NCBI GenBank assembly: GCA_035936835.1
Contig: DASYVT010000189.1
Coordinates: 1 to 40,262 of the forward strand
Reading direction: 5' to 3'
Source of the DNA: Candidatus Methylomirabilota bacterium
Lineage (GTDB): Bacteria > Methylomirabilota > Methylomirabilia > Rokubacteriales > CSP1-6
DNA: 40,262 bases
Both the position numbers and the translations under genes were made by a program. The notes beneath the pieces were generated by a model, which was not told the origin of the DNA, did no database searches, and worked only from the letters and a program-made list of their open reading frames with translations. Positions 11,742-27,099 of this stretch are shown here, one piece after another; position 1 is the stretch's first letter, and every line of letters begins with the position of its first letter.

Positions 11742-12976
11742 GGCCCGCTCCGTTCTACGGCTGGGTGGTCGTGGGGGCGGCCTTCTCCGTCCTCTTCATG
11801 GCCTACGGCGCCCAGTTCTCCTTCGGGGTCTTCTTCTCCGCGCTGCTCGAGGAGTTCGGCTGGAGCCGCGGCGCGCTCTCCGGCGCCTTCGCGCTCTACG
11901 CCTTCGGCTACAGCGGCCTGGCCGCCGTCTCGGGCCGGTTGACGGACCGCTGGGGGCCGCGCGCCGTCATCGCCACGGGCGGCGTGTTCCTCGGCGCGGG
12001 CTGGATCGCCATGAGCGCGACCAGCGCAATCTGGCACCCCTACGTCTTCTACGGCGTCGTGGCCGCCGTCGGCATGTCCACGGCGAACGTCCCCTGCACC
12101 GCCACGGTGGCTCGCTGGTTCGCCAGACGGCGGGGGCTCGCCACGGGCCTGGCCTCGGCGGGCGGCAGCTTCGGCGCCTTCTGCCTGCCGCCGATCGCCC
12201 AGCTCCTCGTGTCGGGCGTCGGCTGGCGCCGAGCCTACGTCATCTTCGGCACGGCTATCCTCCTGATTGTCAACCTGCTAGCCCCGCTCATGAAGCGCGA
12301 TCCCGAGGGACTCGGCCTCACGCCCGATGGCGACCCACCCAGCGAGCACACCGGCGCCGTGGCCGCACGGGGCACGGATTACACGATGAGCCAGGCCATG
12401 CGGACACGGGCCTTCTGGGTGCTCTTCGCCCTCTTCGCGGCCACGTGGATCCCGATCTTCGCGCCTTTGGTCCATCTGGTGCCCCTGGCCCGTGGGCTGG
12501 GTGTCGACCCGCTCGTGGCGACGACGCTCGTGAGCGCGCTCGGCATGGCGGGCATCGTCGGCCGCCTCATCATGGGCAGCCTCTCGGACCGCATCGGCCG
12601 CCGGCCGGCGATCGGCATCGGGCTCGTCCTTCAGATTTTGGCCTTTCTCGGGTTCGCGGTGGCCGACGCCCTGCCCGGCCTCTACGCCGCATCGATCGCG
12701 TTCGGGTTCTCTTACGGCGCTGTCGCGTCGCTCTTCCCCGCGATCGTGGCGGATTTCTTCGGTCGCGAGCGGGCCGGCAGTCTCGTCGGCCTGCTCTTCG
12801 CGATGTCGGGCTCGATGGCGGCCTTGGGCCCGCTGGGGGCCGGCTTCATTTATGATCGCACCGGCAGCTACGGCCCGGCCTGGGTCGGCAGCGCGGCGCT
12901 CAACGTGGTAGCGCTGGGGCTCCTTGCCTGGGCCCGGCCGCCGCGTCGGCTCGAACTCTCTCTCAAGGAGGCGTGA
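11738..12976 (+). CDS. MFS transporter (monocarboxylate/oxalate-formate antiporter-like)
   Basis: The 412-residue protein has about twelve membrane helices and opens with FYGWVVVGAAFSVLFMAYG, typical of the monocarboxylate/oxalate-formate branch of the major facilitator superfamily. The loop motif SGRLTDRWGPR after helix 2 and its half-repeat MGSLSDRIGRRPA after helix 8 are the MFS loop motifs. A central cytoplasmic loop carries KRDPEGLGLTPDG. Start GTG 11738 overlaps the uvrA stop (GTGA). The following genes encode a thiolase-like/DUF35 pair, so import of an organic acid for CoA-dependent breakdown is a reasonable inference; the substrate is unknown. Confidence 0.9.
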   Translation: MRPAPFYGWVVVGAAFSVLFMAYGAQFSFGVFFSALLEEFGWSRGALSGAFALYAFGYSGLAAVSGRLTDRWGPRAVIATGGVFLGAGWIAMSATSAIWHPYVFYGVVAAVGMSTANVPCTATVARWFARRRGLATGLASAGGSFGAFCLPPIAQLLVSGVGWRRAYVIFGTAILLIVNLLAPLMKRDPEGLGLTPDGDPPSEHTGAVAARGTDYTMSQAMRTRAFWVLFALFAATWIPIFAPLVHLVPLARGLGVDPLVATTLVSALGMAGIVGRLIMGSLSDRIGRRPAIGIGLVLQILAFLGFAVADALPGLYAASIAFGFSYGAVASLFPAIVADFFGRERAGSLVGLLFAMSGSMAALGPLGAGFIYDRTGSYGPAWVGSAALNVVALGLLAWARPPRRLELSLKEA

Positions 12977-14190
12977 TGGCTGGGCTCAAGGACAAGTACT
13001 GCATCGTGGGCGTGGGCGAGACGGAGTACAGCAAGCATTCGGGCCGGAGCACGCGGGCCATGGCGGTCGAGGCCGTGAAAACGGCCATGGCCGACGCGGG
13101 GCTCAAGGCCGCCGCCGTGGACGGCATGATGTCCTACCAGAGCGGTGACTCGACGCCGGCCAACTGGGTCGCCCCCGACCTGGGCATCCGCCTCAACTTC
13201 TACATGGACGTGTTCGGCGGCGGCTCCTCGACCGAGGCGCTGGTGGGCCTGGCGATGGGCGCGATCGAGTCGGGCATGTGCAACACGGTGGCGATCTTCC
13301 GCTCCATGAACGGCTACTCTGACTTCCGCATCGGCGGCACGGGCGCGCGGGCGGCCCAGCCCGTGCGCGGGCTCGACCTGGCGCAGGTGCCCTTCGGGAT
13401 GCGCAGCGCCGGGCAGAACTTCGCGCCCACGTTCATGCGCCACATGTACGAGTACGGCACGACCTCCGAGCAGGTGGCGCGCGTGCGCGTGGCGCACAGC
13501 AAACACGCCTCGCAGAACCCCAAGGCGCTCCTGAAGGACCGCGTCACGGTCGAGGACGTCGTCGGCTCGCGCTGGATCACGAAGCCTCTCCATCTCCTCG
13601 ACTGCTGCGTCGAGACGGACAACGCGACCTGCATCATCGTCACCTCGGCCGAGCGCGCGCGCGACCTCAAGCAGAAGCCCGCCTACGTCATGGGCGTGGC
13701 CGGCCGGGTCAACAAGGCGCGCACCGACTTCCACTGGGCCGCCGGTCCCATCTCCCGCGTCGCCGGCTACTACGCCAAGGACATCGTCTTCGGCCAGGCC
13801 GGCATCAAGCCCGAGGACGTGGACGTCACGGGCTCCTACGACGCCTTCACCTTCACGACCATGCTCCAGCTCGAGGAGTACGGCTTCTGCAAGAAGGGCG
13901 AGGGCGGGCAGTACGTGTCGAGCGGCATCATCGAGCTGGGCGGCAAGCGGCCGAACAACACCTCGGGCAGCCACCTCTGCGAAGGCTACACCCACGGCAT
14001 GAGCATGGTCATCGAGAACGTCCGACAGCTGCGCGGGCGCGTGGACGACTACTGCCCAGGCTGGGCGGAGGGTAAGCACAGCTACGACTACTCCCCGGGC
14101 AAGTGCCGGCAGGTCAAGGACGCGAAGATCACGATGAACCTCGGATGGGCGATGCCGCCGACGGGCTCAGCCCTGATCCTCCATAGTTAG
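12976..14190 (+). CDS. Thiolase-like (lipid-transfer/SCP-x type) protein lacking the usual nucleophile
   Basis: The 404-residue protein has the thiolase fold of the lipid-transfer-protein branch: VGVGETEYSK at the start, a GSYDAFTFTTMLQLEEYGFC block and a GEGGQY motif, and a C-terminal TPTG-like MPPTGSALIL. Where thiolases carry the acyl-accepting cysteine, this protein has VFGGGSSTEAL (residues 79-88), with no Cys. This matches the Ltp2-like aldolase branch, which works with a DUF35 partner in side-chain retro-aldol cleavage of CoA thioesters. The gene directly downstream encodes such a partner. AAGGAGG precedes ATG 12976, which overlaps the MFS stop. Confidence 0.85.
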   Translation: MAGLKDKYCIVGVGETEYSKHSGRSTRAMAVEAVKTAMADAGLKAAAVDGMMSYQSGDSTPANWVAPDLGIRLNFYMDVFGGGSSTEALVGLAMGAIESGMCNTVAIFRSMNGYSDFRIGGTGARAAQPVRGLDLAQVPFGMRSAGQNFAPTFMRHMYEYGTTSEQVARVRVAHSKHASQNPKALLKDRVTVEDVVGSRWITKPLHLLDCCVETDNATCIIVTSAERARDLKQKPAYVMGVAGRVNKARTDFHWAAGPISRVAGYYAKDIVFGQAGIKPEDVDVTGSYDAFTFTTMLQLEEYGFCKKGEGGQYVSSGIIELGGKRPNNTSGSHLCEGYTHGMSMVIENVRQLRGRVDDYCPGWAEGKHSYDYSPGKCRQVKDAKITMNLGWAMPPTGSALILHS

Positions 14191-14201
14191 GAGCGATAGA
14201 A

Positions 14202-14705
14202 ATGGCCAACGTCGAATACCGCGGTATGAACCTGGTGATCCCTGAGAATGACTCGGAGTGGCGCGAGCACTTCAAGCTGGCGCGCGGTCACAAGCTGATG
14301 CTGCGCGCCTGCAAGGCTTGCAGCCTCCTGCGCTACCCGCCAAGCCACGCCTGCCCCTGGTGCGCCGCCCTCGAGTGGGAATGGAAGGAGGTCAGCGGCA
14401 AGGGGCACATCTATTCCTACGAGGTGGTGCACCACGCCATCCAGCCGGGCTTCAAGGAGTGGACGCCCTACGCGGTTGTGCTGGTGGAGCTCGACGAGCA
14501 GCGCGGCAAGCCCACAGCGGACGAGGCGCTCAGGATCATCGCCAACCTCGTAACCCCGGACGGAAAGCCCGAGGCCGAGGCCAAGGTCGCCATCGGCAAG
14601 CGCGTGCGCGTGGTCTTCCAGGACCTCGCGGCGGACTTCGCCCTGCCCCAGTTCACGCTGACAGACGAGCCCCCCGTCGGCCGCGTCTGGAGCCTTCCGA
14701 CCTAG
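14202..14705 (+). CDS. Zn-ribbon OB-fold protein (DUF35 family)
   Basis: The 167-residue protein has an N-terminal rubredoxin-like zinc ribbon with C37-x2-C40 and C51-x2-C54, then an OB-fold (GHIYSYEVVHHA..., VRVVFQD). DUF35 proteins bind acyl-CoA and form obligate complexes with thiolase-like partners, including Ltp2-type aldolases and HMG-CoA synthase/thiolase assemblies. Here it begins eleven bases after the thiolase-like gene and should be its subunit. AGGAGCG precedes ATG 14202. Its stop overlaps that of the convergent selenoprotein gene by three bases. Confidence 0.9.
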   Translation: MANVEYRGMNLVIPENDSEWREHFKLARGHKLMLRACKACSLLRYPPSHACPWCAALEWEWKEVSGKGHIYSYEVVHHAIQPGFKEWTPYAVVLVELDEQRGKPTADEALRIIANLVTPDGKPEAEAKVAIGKRVRVVFQDLAADFALPQFTLTDEPPVGRVWSLPT

Positions 14706-15229
14706 CCCCGCGTGAGGCGCGAGACGATCTCGTCGAAGACCTTGTCGGCCAGCGCCCTGACCTCTTCGCGGGTGAGAGTCTGGATCGGGTGCTGCACCAT
14801 GATGGTCTTGTAGGCGTCGGCGCCCAAGGCGGATGCCTGGGCGCGCGCGGCCTTGGCGAACTCGGTCGAGATCACCGTCGCCGTCGGAAGCCCCTGGTCC
14901 TCGAAATACACGCCGTCGTGCACACTGCACGTTGTGCAGGACCCTCAGTCGGCGAGCGCCTCGATGACGGCGTCGCTCGTCTTCAGGATCTCCGCGCGCA
15001 GGTCCTCCGGCGCGGGCCGCGCGAATGTCGGCTTCTTCTTCCTCACAATGGCCTTGGGCTTGGCGCGCTCGCGCAGCAGCTCCTCCACGCGGTCGAGCAG
15101 GTGGTCGCCCTTGGCCTTGGAGATGTCGAGGAGCGTGATCACCTTGCCGTCGAGCGTGGCCAGGCGCGCGGCGGTCTTGCGCGGCACCGCGACGGAGTCG
15201 GTCGGATCCAGGAACTCTTCGGTCATCAT
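14702..15229 (-). CDS. UGSC-family selenoprotein with in-frame TGA (Sec95)
   Basis: Two abutting minus-strand frames (15229-14945 and 14944-14702) are in the same phase and separated only by a TGA at 14947-14945. Read as selenocysteine, the junction is ALAD-U-GSCTTCSVHDGVYFE, the hallmark of the UGSC family of (seleno)proteins. The N-terminal part (LDPTDSVAV, LATLDGKVITLLD..KAKGDHLLDRVEELL) and C-terminal part (GLPTATVISTEF, VQHPIQTLTREEVRALADKV) both fit that family, giving one 175-residue protein. A small hairpin suited to a bacterial SECIS follows the TGA. U95/C98 and the CTTC motif suggest redox chemistry; the substrate is unknown. It starts at ATG 15229, overlapping the 353-residue gene. 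No selA/B/C/D genes are in the window. Confidence 0.88.
14917..14939 (-). promoter_or_regulatory. Candidate bSECIS element after the UGA codon
   Basis: Downstream of the TGA two overlapping, mutually exclusive hairpins can form: CTGCAC-AAC-GTGCAG (14939-14925) and CGTGCA-GTG-TGCACG (14931-14917). The second puts a G-first apical loop 20 nt after UGA, within the distance usual for bacterial SECIS elements. It lies inside the coding sequence, as expected. Confidence 0.5.
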
Positions 15230-16287
15230 AGGCCCTCCCGGGGCGATTGTACCTTCTTAATGACCAGGCGCGACATCTTCGGGAAGGTCCAGCCCGGGAT
15301 GACGGCCGAGAAGCGGCCCGCGGTGCCGCCCGCCACCACGAACTTGAGGTTGCCCGGCTCGCGGAACTTCGGGATCAGCGTCGCGTCGGTCTCCGGGTGC
15401 GGGAACTTGGCCATCACGTGAGCGGGCAGCCCATCGCCGCCGTCCAGCCCTGGGATCAGCTCGCTGACGGGCTTGCGCAGCCGGTGCCAGAGGAAATCGC
15501 GCATGTCGGCCTTGCTCCAGCCGTCGCCCGCGACCGTGCGCGCGTGCTCGGGCGAGAGCACGACCAGCGTGTCGCCGTGGTGCGTGGACTTGTGGTGCGA
15601 GATGACTTCCAGCGAGCGTGAGATGGTGATGAGGAGGTCCTTGGCCGTCAGGCTCCGGTGGTCGTAGACGCCATGGGGCGCCTCTGCTGCGAACGCCGCG
15701 ACCGTGCTCTCGTCCTGGGCGAAGCCGTGTTCGACGGCCAGCGAGTCCCAGGGGTTTTCTTCCTCGTGCTCGCCGATGCAGTAGGTGTAGCGCCCCGGGT
15801 GCGCCATCGTGGACATGCTCATGGTTCGGGCCGACGCTCCACCCACATTGGCGACGATGAGTCGCAGCGCCCGCCCGATCGTCGCGTTGGCGCGCCAGCC
15901 AGGCCCGAAAGCTCCAGCGGCGCAGTTGATGTCGAGCGCTGCACGCGCGGGGCCGTTGACGATGAAGAGCGGCGAGTGAAAGTTGGTCGTGGCGGAGACG
16001 CCGTGAAGATCGAAGGCGTCGTCGCACATGGCCTCGACCCCGGCGATCACGACGGGCAGGTACTCGGGGCGACAGCCGGCCATGACCGCGTTGACCGCGA
16101 TCTTCTCGACGGTGGCGCGGCCGAAATTCGGCGGCACCAGCGCGACCAGCTCGCCGGCCTCACGCCCCGAACCCGCGACCATCGCGGCGACGCGCTCGCG
16201 CGTGGGAGGAACGACGGGAAGGCCGTCGGTGACGCCGCGCTCGAAGAGAGTCTCGAAGGGATCCTGCTCAGGCTGAGGCACAGGCAC
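15226..16287 (-). CDS. Unrecognised 353-residue protein, partner of the UGSC selenoprotein
   Basis: I do not recognise a named family. Visible blocks are FERGVTDGLPVVPPTRERV (15-33), PPNFGRATVEKIAVNAVMAG with C72, a second Cys at 88, a Gly/Asn-rich segment with N121-C122 followed by GRALRLIVANVGG, and KDLLITISRSLEVISHHKS. It has no signal peptide and no membrane helix. The open frame extends upstream, but that part overlaps DUF3047 and is not conserved-looking; GTG 16287 lies five bases after the DUF3047 stop. Its stop overlaps the selenoprotein start (ATGA), so the two are translationally coupled. Conserved Cys and His residues would suit a redox or metal enzyme, which is only a guess. Confidence 0.8.
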   Translation of the reverse strand: MPVPQPEQDPFETLFERGVTDGLPVVPPTRERVAAMVAGSGREAGELVALVPPNFGRATVEKIAVNAVMAGCRPEYLPVVIAGVEAMCDDAFDLHGVSATTNFHSPLFIVNGPARAALDINCAAGAFGPGWRANATIGRALRLIVANVGGASARTMSMSTMAHPGRYTYCIGEHEEENPWDSLAVEHGFAQDESTVAAFAAEAPHGVYDHRSLTAKDLLITISRSLEVISHHKSTHHGDTLVVLSPEHARTVAGDGWSKADMRDFLWHRLRKPVSELIPGLDGGDGLPAHVMAKFPHPETDATLIPKFREPGNLKFVVAGGTAGRFSAVIPGWTFPKMSRLVIKKVQSPREGL

Positions 16288-22701: not shown

Positions 22702-23868
22702 ATGAGCACAGTCAAAGACGCCATCTCGCAGGCGGTAGACCGCCTCGCTGACGAGCTGGACACCCTGTCGAAGAAGATCCACGACAACCCGGAGCTCGCG
22801 TACCAGGAAGTCAAAGCCTGCGCCTGGCTCTCGGAGTTCCTCGGCAAGCAGGGCTTCAAGGTCGAGCAGGGCGTGGGCGGCGTGGAGACGGCCTTCCGTG
22901 CCACGATCGAGACCGGCGAGGGGCCGACCGTCGCGATCCTCTGCGAGTACGACGCGCTCCCCGGCATCGGGCACGCCTGCGGCCACAATGTCATCGCGAC
23001 CTCGGGCGCGGGCGCCGGCGCGGCGCTCGCGGCCGTCAAGGGCCAGCTGCCCAAGGGGCGCGTCCAGGTGATCGGGACTCCGGCGGAGGAGGGCGGCGGC
23101 GGCAAGATCAAGCTCATCAAGGCGGGCGTGTTCAAGGACGTGGATGCCGCCATGATGATCCACGGCTTCGACCGCACGCTGCTACACCAGGACCTGCTCG
23201 GCATCGCGCGCGCGACGTTGGAGTTCAGGGGCAAGGCCTCGCACGCGTCGGCCGACCCGTGGGAGGGCGTCAACGCGCTGGATGCCTGCGTTCAGACGTA
23301 CAACGCCGTCTCCATGCTGCGCCAGCAGGTGCGCCCCGATTGCCGAATTCACGGCATCATCACGAGCGGCGGAGCGGCTGCCAACATCATCCCCGAGTAC
23401 GCGTCGGCGGTTTTCTACGTCCGCGCCCCGAGCATCGACACGATGTGGGACCTCTACCGGCGAGTCATCGCCTGCGCCGAGGGCGCGGCCAAGGCCTCCG
23501 GCTGCGAGCTGAAGGTGACCCAGCACGACAGCGTCTACGAGCCGATGAAGTCGAGCCGCGTGCTCCTCGATCTCTTCAAGGCCAACATGACGGCCGTCGG
23601 CCTCAAGGAGGGTGAGCCGATCCCCGACCGGAAGGGTTCTTCCGACGTCGGCAACGTCAGCCAGGTGCTGCCGACCATCCAGCCGATGATCGGCATCGCG
23701 CCCGAGGGCATGGCCATCCACACGCGCGACTTCGCCGACGCGGCCGTCAAGCCGCTGGCACGGCAGGGCATGATCGCCGCCGCGAAGACCATGGCCATGA
23801 CGACCTTCGATCTCCTCGCCGAGCCCGCGCGGATCAAGGCCGCCAAGAAGGAGTTCATGCGGCCGTGA
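22702..23868 (+). CDS. M20-family amidohydrolase (AbgB/aminoacylase-like), paralogue 1
   Basis: The 388-residue protein is an M20D-type metal-dependent amidohydrolase that would remove an acyl or aminobenzoyl group from an amino acid. Metal-binding landmarks are CEYDALPGIGHACGHN (81-96, with H91, C93 and H95) and TPAEEGGGG (126-134, E129/E130), then the dimerisation domain with KASHASADPWEGVNALDA. Strong GGAGG precedes ATG 22702. It closely resembles the gene at 25903, the pair probably arising by tandem duplication; an ATPase/DUF4276 cassette now stands between them. Confidence 0.92.
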   Translation: MSTVKDAISQAVDRLADELDTLSKKIHDNPELAYQEVKACAWLSEFLGKQGFKVEQGVGGVETAFRATIETGEGPTVAILCEYDALPGIGHACGHNVIATSGAGAGAALAAVKGQLPKGRVQVIGTPAEEGGGGKIKLIKAGVFKDVDAAMMIHGFDRTLLHQDLLGIARATLEFRGKASHASADPWEGVNALDACVQTYNAVSMLRQQVRPDCRIHGIITSGGAAANIIPEYASAVFYVRAPSIDTMWDLYRRVIACAEGAAKASGCELKVTQHDSVYEPMKSSRVLLDLFKANMTAVGLKEGEPIPDRKGSSDVGNVSQVLPTIQPMIGIAPEGMAIHTRDFADAAVKPLARQGMIAAAKTMAMTTFDLLAEPARIKAAKKEFMRP

Positions 23869-23904: not shown

Positions 23905-25110
23905 GTGACAACTGATACCTCGAAATCCGCCTATATCCATGAGGCCCAGGTCAAGAATTACAAGAGCCTGGCTCAAGTGGTAGTGCCCCTACGCCCGCTG
24001 TCCGTCCTCGTTGGTCCGAACGGTGCGGGAAAGAGCAACTTTACGGATGCGCTTCGGTTCGTGGCGGACTCGCTCAACGGGACCCTGTCGCTTGCCCTCA
24101 AACAGCGCGGAGGCATCGGCGCGGTTCGCCGCATTTCGAGCGGTCATCCGAACAACTTTGGCGTTCGGCTCAAGCTGGCCCTACGTGATCACGTCTTTGC
24201 TGACTTCTCTTTCGAGATCACCGCCGCTGCAGCAGGCAACTTCCTCGTAAAGCGAGAGCGCTGCAGTGTTCGCGGGCTCATGAAACACGACGTCTACCAA
24301 GTCGAGAACGGGGAATTCACAACCCCGGTGCCTGGCATCAGAGCCAAGATTGAGCCAGATCGTCTTGCTCTCACCATCCTCTCTGCCGTAGAAGAGTTCC
24401 GGCCAGTGTTCGACTTCCTCAGTCGGATGCGATTCTACTCAATCGCTCCAGAGATGATCCGCGAGATTCAGGATCCAGATGCGGGAGACGTGCTCCGGCG
24501 AGACGGGAGCAATGCAGCCGCAGTGCTTCGGGAAATGAGTAGAAAATCGAAGGACACCTACGACAAAGTCTGCCGTCTTCTGTCAAAGGTAGTCCCCGGT
24601 GTGAGCGCCGTTGAATACCGATCGTTGGGACAAAAGGAAACTCTGACCTTCAAGCAGGACATTGGCGCCAATTGGCCTTGGAACTTTGATGCTCTCAACA
24701 TGTCAGATGGAACGCTTAGGGCACTTGGCATTCTCTTGGCCGTTTATCAGCCTTCTGTGCCAGCCCTGGTCGTTATTGAGGAACCTGAGGCAACCATTCA
24801 TCCTGCTGCTATGGATGTGCTCGTACAGATCCTCAAAGATGGTCAACATCGCACTCAAGTTCTCGTAACTACACATAGCCCCGATGTCCTAGATAACAAG
24901 GCAATCCCGGAGGATTGTATCCTTGCCGTGGAGAACCACCGAGGGAAGACGCTGATTGGAACGCTAGGCCGGCTCTCTCGCGAGAGCATCAGGCGCAGGC
25001 TCTACAGCGCTGGCGAGCTAATGAGGGTTGGTGAGTTAGAGGTTGACCGAGCTCACGCCGAGGAGCTAGGAGAGCAGCTCGACCTATTCGGCCCACTTAA
25101 CACACTGTGA
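23905..25110 (+). CDS. AAA ATPase (AAA15/OLD-like), putative defence-module component
   Basis: The 401-residue protein is a RecF/OLD-type ABC-fold ATPase: N-terminal VKNYKSLAQVVVPLRPLSVL, Walker A GPNGAGKS at 37-44, a signature-like NMSDGTLRALGI, Walker B LVVIEEPEATIHP and the H-loop TTHSPDVLD. No TOPRIM domain is fused. Start is GTG 23905 with a weak ribosome site. It overlaps the DUF4276 gene by four bases (GTGA). Codon use and base composition are visibly less GC-rich than either neighbour, pointing to recent transfer. Paired ATPase and TOPRIM-like genes of this layout are usual in phage-defence islands; the role here is inference. Confidence 0.9.
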   Translation: MTTDTSKSAYIHEAQVKNYKSLAQVVVPLRPLSVLVGPNGAGKSNFTDALRFVADSLNGTLSLALKQRGGIGAVRRISSGHPNNFGVRLKLALRDHVFADFSFEITAAAAGNFLVKRERCSVRGLMKHDVYQVENGEFTTPVPGIRAKIEPDRLALTILSAVEEFRPVFDFLSRMRFYSIAPEMIREIQDPDAGDVLRRDGSNAAAVLREMSRKSKDTYDKVCRLLSKVVPGVSAVEYRSLGQKETLTFKQDIGANWPWNFDALNMSDGTLRALGILLAVYQPSVPALVVIEEPEATIHPAAMDVLVQILKDGQHRTQVLVTTHSPDVLDNKAIPEDCILAVENHRGKTLIGTLGRLSRESIRRRLYSAGELMRVGELEVDRAHAEELGEQLDLFGPLNTL

Positions 25111-25697
25111 TTGTTCCGATCGTCGAGGGGCACGCGGAACGTGAGTCCATCCCCGTTTTTGTCCGGAGACTCCTGAATGACCAAGGAGTCCACAACATCC
25201 CAGTTCGTTCAGGATTCCGTGTGCATCGAGACAAAGTCGTTAAACCTGGAGAGCTCGAAAGGACAGTTGAGACAGCGCTGAGCGAGGCAAACGCAAGAGC
25301 GCTCATACTCATTCTGGACGCTGATGACGATTGTCCGGCAACCCTCGGCGCGACGCTCCTGGGCCGCGGAGTCGTCAGCGCCGCAGGCCACCCCCTCGGT
25401 GTGGTCTTGGCCAAGAAAGAGCTCGAGGCGTGGTTCATAGCCGGCATTGAGTCCCTCCGGGGGCAGCGCGGCATTCGGGACGATGCTACGTGCCCGGCAG
25501 ATCCCGAGAGCATCCAGGGAGCGAAGGGCTGGCTGACACAGCACATGGAAGGTGGTCGAACCTACGTCGAAGTGGACGATCAACCCGCACTCATTACCAT
25601 CTTTGACTACGTGACGGCCGCACCCAGATCGCGATCGTTGAGGAAGTTCTTGGCGGAGGTAACGTCACTTCGTCATGCGCTTGCGGTTGAGCCATAG
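25107..25697 (+). CDS. DUF4276 family protein (TOPRIM-like), partner of the AAA ATPase
   Basis: The 196-residue protein starts VPIVEGHAERESIPVFVRR, where E7 of VEG is the position of the catalytic acid in TOPRIM-like folds, and has ILILDADDDCP with D71/D73 as the paired acids. KKELEAWFIAGIESLRG at 103-119 is a further DUF4276 hallmark. It lacks a membrane helix. A nuclease or nucleotide-binding effector role is probable by fold, not shown. GTG 25107 overlaps the ATPase stop, so the two are translationally coupled. It shares the lower GC content of its partner. Confidence 0.85.
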   Translation: MIVPIVEGHAERESIPVFVRRLLNDQGVHNIPVRSGFRVHRDKVVKPGELERTVETALSEANARALILILDADDDCPATLGATLLGRGVVSAAGHPLGVVLAKKELEAWFIAGIESLRGQRGIRDDATCPADPESIQGAKGWLTQHMEGGRTYVEVDDQPALITIFDYVTAAPRSRSLRKFLAEVTSLRHALAVEP

Positions 25698-25902
25698 GCT
25701 CAGCACCCTATATCTTCCACAACTATTACTATGACATCACACAGGAACACACGGGGCCAAGTTCATGCTCGGCCAGAACCGGCCGCCAGCGGGGCGCGCC
25801 CGCGTCATCGAAGAGCAGCACAAGCGCGCCAGATCAATCACCTCCGTACCGCTGAGGTGCAGCGGTCGACGCTCGACCACGCCCCAACACGAGGAGCCAC
25901 GC
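25698..25902. other. Intergenic region before the second M20 gene
   Basis: This 205-nt gap holds an AT-rich stretch with a possible promoter (TTGAGC, 16 nt, TATATC at about 25690-25717), then GC-rich sequence with two overlapping inverted repeats. No convincing ORF with a ribosome site is present. Confidence 0.5.
25848..25878. promoter_or_regulatory. Overlapping inverted repeats upstream of the second M20 gene
   Basis: ACCGCT (25848-25853) and AGCGGT (25861-25866) are 7 nt apart, and GGTCGA (25864-25869) and TCGACC (25873-25878) 3 nt apart, all perfect. Being 25-55 nt before ATG 25903, they may be regulator sites or a leader hairpin. Confidence 0.45.
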
Positions 25903-27099
25903 ATGGCACGTGAGACGCTCGACCAGGCGAAGACCAAGGTCGCGGAGGCGGTGGACCGCCTGGCCGACGACCTCGAAAAGATGTCCCACCAGATCCACGG
26001 CAACCCGGAGCTTTGCTTCAAGGAGGAGAAGGCGGCGGGCTGGCTCAGCGACTTCCTCGAGAAGCACGGCGCCCGCGTCGAGCGCGGTGTCGGCGGGCTG
26101 CCGACGGCCTTCCGCGCGAGCATCGAGGGTAGCGGGCCGGGGCCGACCGTCGCCATCATGGCGGAGTACGACGCCCTGCCCAACATCGGGCACGCCTGCG
26201 GGCACAACGTGATCGCCACCGCGGGCGCCGGCGCGGGCGCGGCCATCGCCGCGGCGCTTGGCAAGGTGCCCTTCGCGGGGCGCATCCAGGTCATCGGGAC
26301 GCCGGCCGAGGAGGGCGGCGCGGGCAAGGTCAGGCTCATGGAGGCGGGAGTCTTCAAGGACGTGGACGCCGCCATGATGATCCACGGCCGCTGCGGCACG
26401 CAGGTGTGGCGGCCGAGCCTCGGCATCATCAAGGTCACGTGCGAGTTCTTCGGCAAGGCCTCGCACGCCTCGTCCTGGCCCTGGCGCGGCGTCAACGCGC
26501 TCAACGCCATGATCCAGCTCTTCGTCTCGCTCGATCTGATGCGGCAGCAGATCAAGCCGGACGCGCGCGTGCACGGCATCATCACCAAGGGCGGCGACCA
26601 GGCCAATATCATCCCCGAGCACACGTCGGCCGAGTTCTACCTGCGGGCGCCCACCAAGGACTACTGCAAGGAGCTGCTGCGGCGTTTCGAGGGGTGCACC
26701 CAGGGCGCGGCAACCGCGACGGGCTGCACGGCCAAGGTCACGGCGGACGCGACCATCCACGACCCGCTTAAGGCAAACTTCACGATGGCGGACCTGTTCT
26801 GCAAGAACCTCGAGCGGATCGACTTCCCCGTCGATCCCGACGATGGCGAGGCGGGCTACGGCTCGACGGACTGCGGCAACGTCAGCCAGGCCATCCCGAC
26901 CATCCATCCGTACATCCGCATCTCGCCCGACGGCATTCCGGGGCACTCACGCGAGTTCGCCGAGTGGGCGAAGTCGCCGCTGGCGCGCATCGGCATGGTC
27001 GCAGGAGCGAAGGCGCTGGCGCTGACGGCGCTCGACCTCCTGGCCAGGCCCGCGGAGCTCAAGAAAGCGAAAGACGAGTTCGCGAAGACCCAGGGCTGA
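25903..27099 (+). CDS. M20-family amidohydrolase (AbgB/aminoacylase-like), paralogue 2
   Basis: The 398-residue protein aligns over its whole length with the gene at 22702. AEYDALPNIGHACGHN, TPAEEGGAGK and KASHASSWPWRGVNALNA are at matching positions, with the same metal ligands. Differences cluster in the dimerisation domain (CGTQVWRPSLG, THDPL region), which may mean a different acyl group. GAGGAG precedes ATG 25903; the frame extends upstream to 25765 without support. The gene ends just before the second repeat copy. Confidence 0.92.
   Translation: MARETLDQAKTKVAEAVDRLADDLEKMSHQIHGNPELCFKEEKAAGWLSDFLEKHGARVERGVGGLPTAFRASIEGSGPGPTVAIMAEYDALPNIGHACGHNVIATAGAGAGAAIAAALGKVPFAGRIQVIGTPAEEGGAGKVRLMEAGVFKDVDAAMMIHGRCGTQVWRPSLGIIKVTCEFFGKASHASSWPWRGVNALNAMIQLFVSLDLMRQQIKPDARVHGIITKGGDQANIIPEHTSAEFYLRAPTKDYCKELLRRFEGCTQGAATATGCTAKVTADATIHDPLKANFTMADLFCKNLERIDFPVDPDDGEAGYGSTDCGNVSQAIPTIHPYIRISPDGIPGHSREFAEWAKSPLARIGMVAGAKALALTALDLLARPAELKKAKDEFAKTQG

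Follow-up and report, generated by a model that had tools for sequence, protein, structure and literature searches.

We have analysed a window of DNA that is an entire contig (C189; 40,262 bases) of a 4.12-Mb genome, itself 99.94% complete, and we are nearly certain that it carries a true selenoprotein gene of the UGSC family (14702..15229, minus strand; 175 codons including Sec95, stop TAG). The broader explanation that we favour, with some reserve, is that Sec-decoded UGSC would act with a partner subunit, the product of the neighbouring gene, as a reductase working through a seleno-adduct. The UGSC family and its selenoprotein nature are already known (PMC2398784, NF041046, PF24696). No feature separates the window gene from the other members, with which it shares the full-length profile match, the Sec of U-G-S-C, the length and the SECIS element. 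Three points are new here: the partner is almost always present, UGSC genes have multiplied in the host family, and UGSC is related to GrdB.

The two frames that a first-pass annotation had seen split by a TGA, and had suspected to be a single gene, are indeed one. The minus-strand frame 15229-14702 has a sole internal TGA at 14947-14945 (U95) and its terminator is the TAG at 14704-14702; read through, it yields a product of 175 aa (MMTEEF...ALADUGSCTTCSVHDG...SRLTRG) with the exact UGSC signature in the form U-G-S-C-T-T-C. Joined, the two halves score 165.7 bits against NCBIfam NF041046 (cut-off 125) and 171.1 bits against Pfam PF24696 (cut-off 25), and both alignments cover almost the entire profile, hence both flanks of the TGA; with scores above the cut-offs and alignment on both sides, this frame is not a product of chance, and the family assignment made from the motif holds. 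The suspicion that gene callers would truncate the gene was also well founded, since the plain ORF list has only the N-terminal 94 codons in that frame. The UGSC start ATGATGACC overlaps the TGA stop (15228-15226) of the gene upstream, and UGSC thus appears to stand second in an operon.

The alignment at residue 95 was the place where the selenoprotein reading had been expected to fail if it was wrong, and it came out in its favour: in an alignment of homologues for which TGA was entered as Cys (n=86), this column corresponds to a TGA codon in 86 of 86. Cys homologues were absent from the homologue sets that we compared; PMC2398784 counts 21 Cys against 255 Sec forms of UGSC in ocean data. Some UGSC proteins lack the second Cys of the motif (UGSCSSG, UGSCTSW), and a copy in a Betaproteobacteria MAG (L112:3603-3653) reads U-G-S-S-T-P-W, with the Sec retained and the x-x-C cysteine gone; both tell against the enzyme reading that we favour. 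Seven UGSC genes are present in the window genome, each with one in-frame TGA. At the phylum level, 72 of the 95 genomes searched have UGSC, each of the 57 genomes sampled from the host family holds between 2 and 12 copies, and every match listed from about 95 relatives has exactly one in-frame TGA; an earlier census had recorded 33 UGSC proteins in 26 organisms (PMC5029168). Ordinary gene calling can split many selenoprotein genes, seven of the UGSC family alone in this 4.1-Mb genome.

The Sec machinery, which the first-pass annotation had wished to see sought in the rest of the genome, was found there in full (tRNA-Sec, selA, selB and selD). The tRNA-Sec scores 71.3 bits against a gathering score of 47, is called tRNA-SeC with anticodon tca by ARAGORN, and shares contig C235 with SelA and SelB. 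The selD gene (L018, G000:C183:11015-11956) has one in-frame TGA itself, and the selenophosphate synthetase SelD of this genome is thus probably a selenoprotein too. The same is probably true of a PrdB-like protein encoded elsewhere in the genome (L153, G000:C148:50628-51056), with an in-frame TGA, U146 and the motif U-P-I-C. Our literature search returned no paper tying Rokubacteria specifically to selenoproteins.

Downstream of the TGA lies a bSECIS-type hairpin with a 6-bp stem and a GUG loop (14917..14931, minus strand; loop 14925-14923), close to where an apical loop had been proposed at about 20 nt. We compared the 51 nt from the TGA on in 87 distinct relatives, which align without gaps. 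Counting the T of the TGA as 1, the stem joins columns 17-22 to 26-31 and the loop occupies columns 23-25, that is, 19 nt past the TGA. Pairing is kept in 96.7% of the 522 stem cells, and compensatory, both-sided changes occur in five of the six stem pairs (40 cells, against 8.2 in shuffles), although these sequences are kin and the counts are not independent events. Column pair 19/29 has gone from U-A to G-U in 21 sequences and 21/27 from C-G to G-C in 12; the covariation of the stem is 0.305, whereas shuffles give 0.103 and slid registers do not exceed 0.079. Wherever the loop codon specifies Ser (79 sequences) it is AGT, and in the six sequences with Cys it is TGT, so that the loop keeps its GU, while AGT accounts for 6.7% of serine codons elsewhere in those reading frames. 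Pairing, covariation and codon bias together are as predicted for a bacterial SECIS. The stem extended to column 14 is less conserved (85.1% of cells pair). A competing hairpin, TGCAC-AAC-GTGCA, is favoured by the minimum-free-energy fold of the single sequence and was set aside, as the alignment supports the conserved stem instead. At the gathering threshold, Rfam matched nothing in the window. The most divergent UGSC copy (L034/G000:C70), in which U-S-T-C replaces U-G-S-C and which is fused to the partner, is without the conserved AGT loop codon, and its SECIS may differ.

Machinery, SECIS covariation and the conserved codon all agree, and the TGA is almost certainly read as Sec here, as had been supposed from the sequence of this locus. 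It would be decoded by the organism's own SelA, SelB, tRNA-Sec and SelD, with the SECIS loop about 20 nt downstream as guide. Two other readings of the codon deserve to be weighed. TGA does serve as a normal stop in this genome, for instance where it closes the partner gene, and one could take it for a genuine stop or an error here, leaving two halves that are separate or dead ORFs; we consider this very improbable, because the TGA stands at the identical codon in the seven paralogues and in all listed relatives, the protein is conserved beyond it and the machinery is complete, and the shared TGA together with the covarying SECIS led us to reject a dead gene, a true stop and a sequencing error alike. 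A general reassignment of TGA to another amino acid in this organism has in its favour the in-frame TGA itself and nothing more. It is more improbable still, as TGA terminates the partner gene, on which ground it was rejected, as well as other genes of the genome, and as both SelB and a Sec-specific tRNA (anticodon TCA) were found.

The partner gene (15226..16281, minus strand), which the first-pass annotation had passed over, encodes a protein of 351 aa from an unnamed family, with a GTG start and a stop that overlaps the UGSC start. Among named records, Candidatus Rokuibacteriota come closest to this locus (partner 60-71% identical), and judged by this similarity the host is probably a Rokubacteria-type bacterium. 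A paralogue of it adjoins or is fused to all seven UGSC genes of the genome, in either gene order. There are ten partner genes in total, three of them with no UGSC nearby, so that in this genome a UGSC gene is always accompanied by a partner, whereas a partner may occur without UGSC. UGSC and partner form one continuous chain after the Sec in two cases (the first copy of L030, and L034). When species genomes were searched with the partner only, UGSC turned up at 70 of the best 80 loci, in 69 cases on the strand of the partner, and the matched regions lie a median of 58 nt apart; these 80 loci belong to records named Chloroflexi, Proteobacteria, Acidobacteria, Binatia and others. Six of the ten loci without UGSC are from Poribacteria (L063, L071, L072, L102, L104, L108), which have a shorter partner-type protein with no UGSC nearby, possibly a Sec-independent branch. 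The accompaniment of UGSC by the partner in most bacteria examined suggests that both form one selenium enzyme, and we hold it likely that they make up one physical complex. Fusion of UGSC to another domain was already reported in 2008 (to the conserved domain Unknown_1; PMC2398784), as we find here; Unknown_1 may be the partner family.

The partner itself resists classification. It has no match in Pfam or NCBIfam at E up to 10 and no useful match to PDB sequences, and its confidently predicted structure (pLDDT 94.5) matches no PDB fold at E<=0.001. Foldseek gave fumarate-hydratase-like matches, which are weak (best E 3.7e-3, probability 0.63) and on which we do not rely; kinship with the PF07355 part of GrdB was rejected, as the partner shows no similarity to it.

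The relation of UGSC to GrdB surfaced when the NCBIfam runner-up for two UGSC paralogues proved to be glycine reductase selenoprotein B, with E 0.04 and 0.076 at its Sec region. For the comparison set we drew GrdB-type and PrdB-like genes, with TGA at the expected place, from related genomes. Aligned by hhalign, the 86 UGSC sequences match the GrdB Sec domain with a probability of 93.8 and E 1.7e-7, Sec on Sec, and the PrdB-like proteins with E 5.3e-4. When the seven motif columns were masked in both UGSC and GrdB, the register held with the significance falling to E 7.7e-4; reversal gave 0.042, and none of 30 column shuffles did better than 0.052. Conversely, an HMM of the GrdB Sec domain run over 6,741 six-frame translations found, below E 1e-3, UGSC frames only. 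These comparisons support a relation that is remote but extends beyond the motif, and by such remote similarity UGSC has the Sec-bearing C-terminal domain of the GrdB/PrdB group. The region at and after the Sec aligns with the GrdB Sec domain (TIGR01917), U-G-[ST]-x is common to both, and the U-x-x-C-x-x-C pattern of GrdB (UxxCxxC in PMC13188914) is that of the window copy (UGSCTTC). PrdB and PrdB-like proteins have a Sec domain whose U-x-x-C occupies the corresponding position, as in UGSC. There are clear differences in the rest of the chains: GrdB has a PF07355 part, whereas UGSC has none and its partner is unrelated to it, and PrdB-type proteins carry U-P-x-C and a PF07355-like N-terminal half, unlike the U-G-S-C and the other N-terminal half of UGSC. 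PF07355 (GRDB) did not match N-terminal to the Sec in UGSC up to E 10 (hhalign probability 0.8), profile comparisons of UGSC with the partner or with the N-terminal part of GrdB gave nothing, and the UGSC profile found nothing meaningful among PDB sequences. In relatives whose genomes also have UGSC, full-length GrdB-type proteins show an in-frame TGA where the Sec is expected (L147-L150).

On this distant kinship with the Sec domain of GrdB and PrdB-like proteins we base a proposal for the mechanism. UGSC would be the Sec subunit of a two-protein enzyme whose other subunit is the product of 15226-16281; by analogy, both the Sec and the resolving Cys would come from UGSC, and the substrate would be held by the partner. 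The Sec of glycine reductase-type enzymes forms an adduct with a substrate carbon. Similarly, the Sec of UGSC, at the start of a helix, might attack the partner-held substrate and break a carbon-heteroatom bond, whereupon the seleno-adduct formed would be resolved by the Cys of U-x-x-C as a selenenylsulfide, to be reduced by thiols. Physical complex, catalysis, reaction type and substrate are all inferred, and GrdB/PrdB-type reductive cleavage by UGSC is a tentative suggestion. The substrate-binding role of the partner is a guess, as this protein resembles neither the other part of GrdB nor a solved fold (E<=0.001). In PMC10838667 the breaking of the carbon-fluorine bond of monofluoroacetate is ascribed to an operon that includes GrdB-related proteins, which shows that GrdB-type enzymes can act on other substrates. 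It is conceivable, although we would not yet wager on it, that UGSC and its partner represent a new class of two-subunit Sec reductases, cousins of GrdB/PrdB with another substrate-binding subunit, which in Rokubacteria-type bacteria would have diversified, with up to 12 UGSC genes in a genome, for the cleavage of varied organic compounds.

Our literature search found no paper giving UGSC a function. Earlier papers suppose a generic thiol or peroxide oxidoreductase, similar to thioredoxin or peroxiredoxin, for which the partner would be a target or a regulator, and PMC2398784 suggests a thioredoxin-like fold. The conserved U-x-x-C motif, a redox motif shared with thioredoxin-fold selenoproteins, speaks for this view, as does the occurrence of partner genes without UGSC. 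The model of UGSC (pLDDT 93.2), however, has a repeating beta/alpha order, with the Sec placed after strand 87-93 and before helix 96-111; the PDB structures that match it best have flavodoxin-like and similar folds (TM up to 0.53), and no thioredoxin appears among the 50 Foldseek PDB matches listed. The predicted fold is thus flavodoxin-like, not thioredoxin-like, and a thioredoxin fold finds no support in the model. Moreover, the partner fusions, the many paralogous pairs per genome and the nearby transporters better fit substrate-specific enzymes than a housekeeping redox protein. A generic oxidoreductase is therefore the less likely reading, and the two-subunit Sec reductase stays our favoured proposal. 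Partner linkage across phyla, fusions, GrdB homology and expansion make its function testable at the level of the complex, the substrate and the bond; the partner and the GrdB relation turn an abundant family with no assigned function into an enzyme hypothesis that can be put to the test.

The surroundings of UGSC modules are consistent with the catabolism of varied organic compounds. Convergent with UGSC in the window is an OB-fold/zinc-ribbon protein of the ChsH2 type (14202..14705, plus strand; PF01796, PF12172), relatives of which lie near the partner gene in three other loci (L037, L038, L040), and upstream of it is a thiolase-like protein (12973..14190, plus strand; PF22691 and several thiolase/lipid-transfer models). 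Thiolases are found near seven loci, and acyl-CoA dehydrogenases near six, in the UGSC modules of other genomes. One module (L033) neighbours an IclR regulator and a TRAP transporter, and the L034 module an NMT1-type solute-binding protein and a luciferase-like monooxygenase.

Elsewhere in the window (23905-25697), an overlapping pair of lower-GC3 genes encodes an AAA ATPase (AAA_21) and a DUF4276 protein, which match the two components of HEC-01, a candidate defence system in PADLOC (HEC-01A, E 1.1e-130; HEC-01B, E 3.3e-56). The pair is flanked by two genes of the M20-peptidase family (22702-23868 and 25765-27099), which gives the impression of an insertion between duplicated genes.
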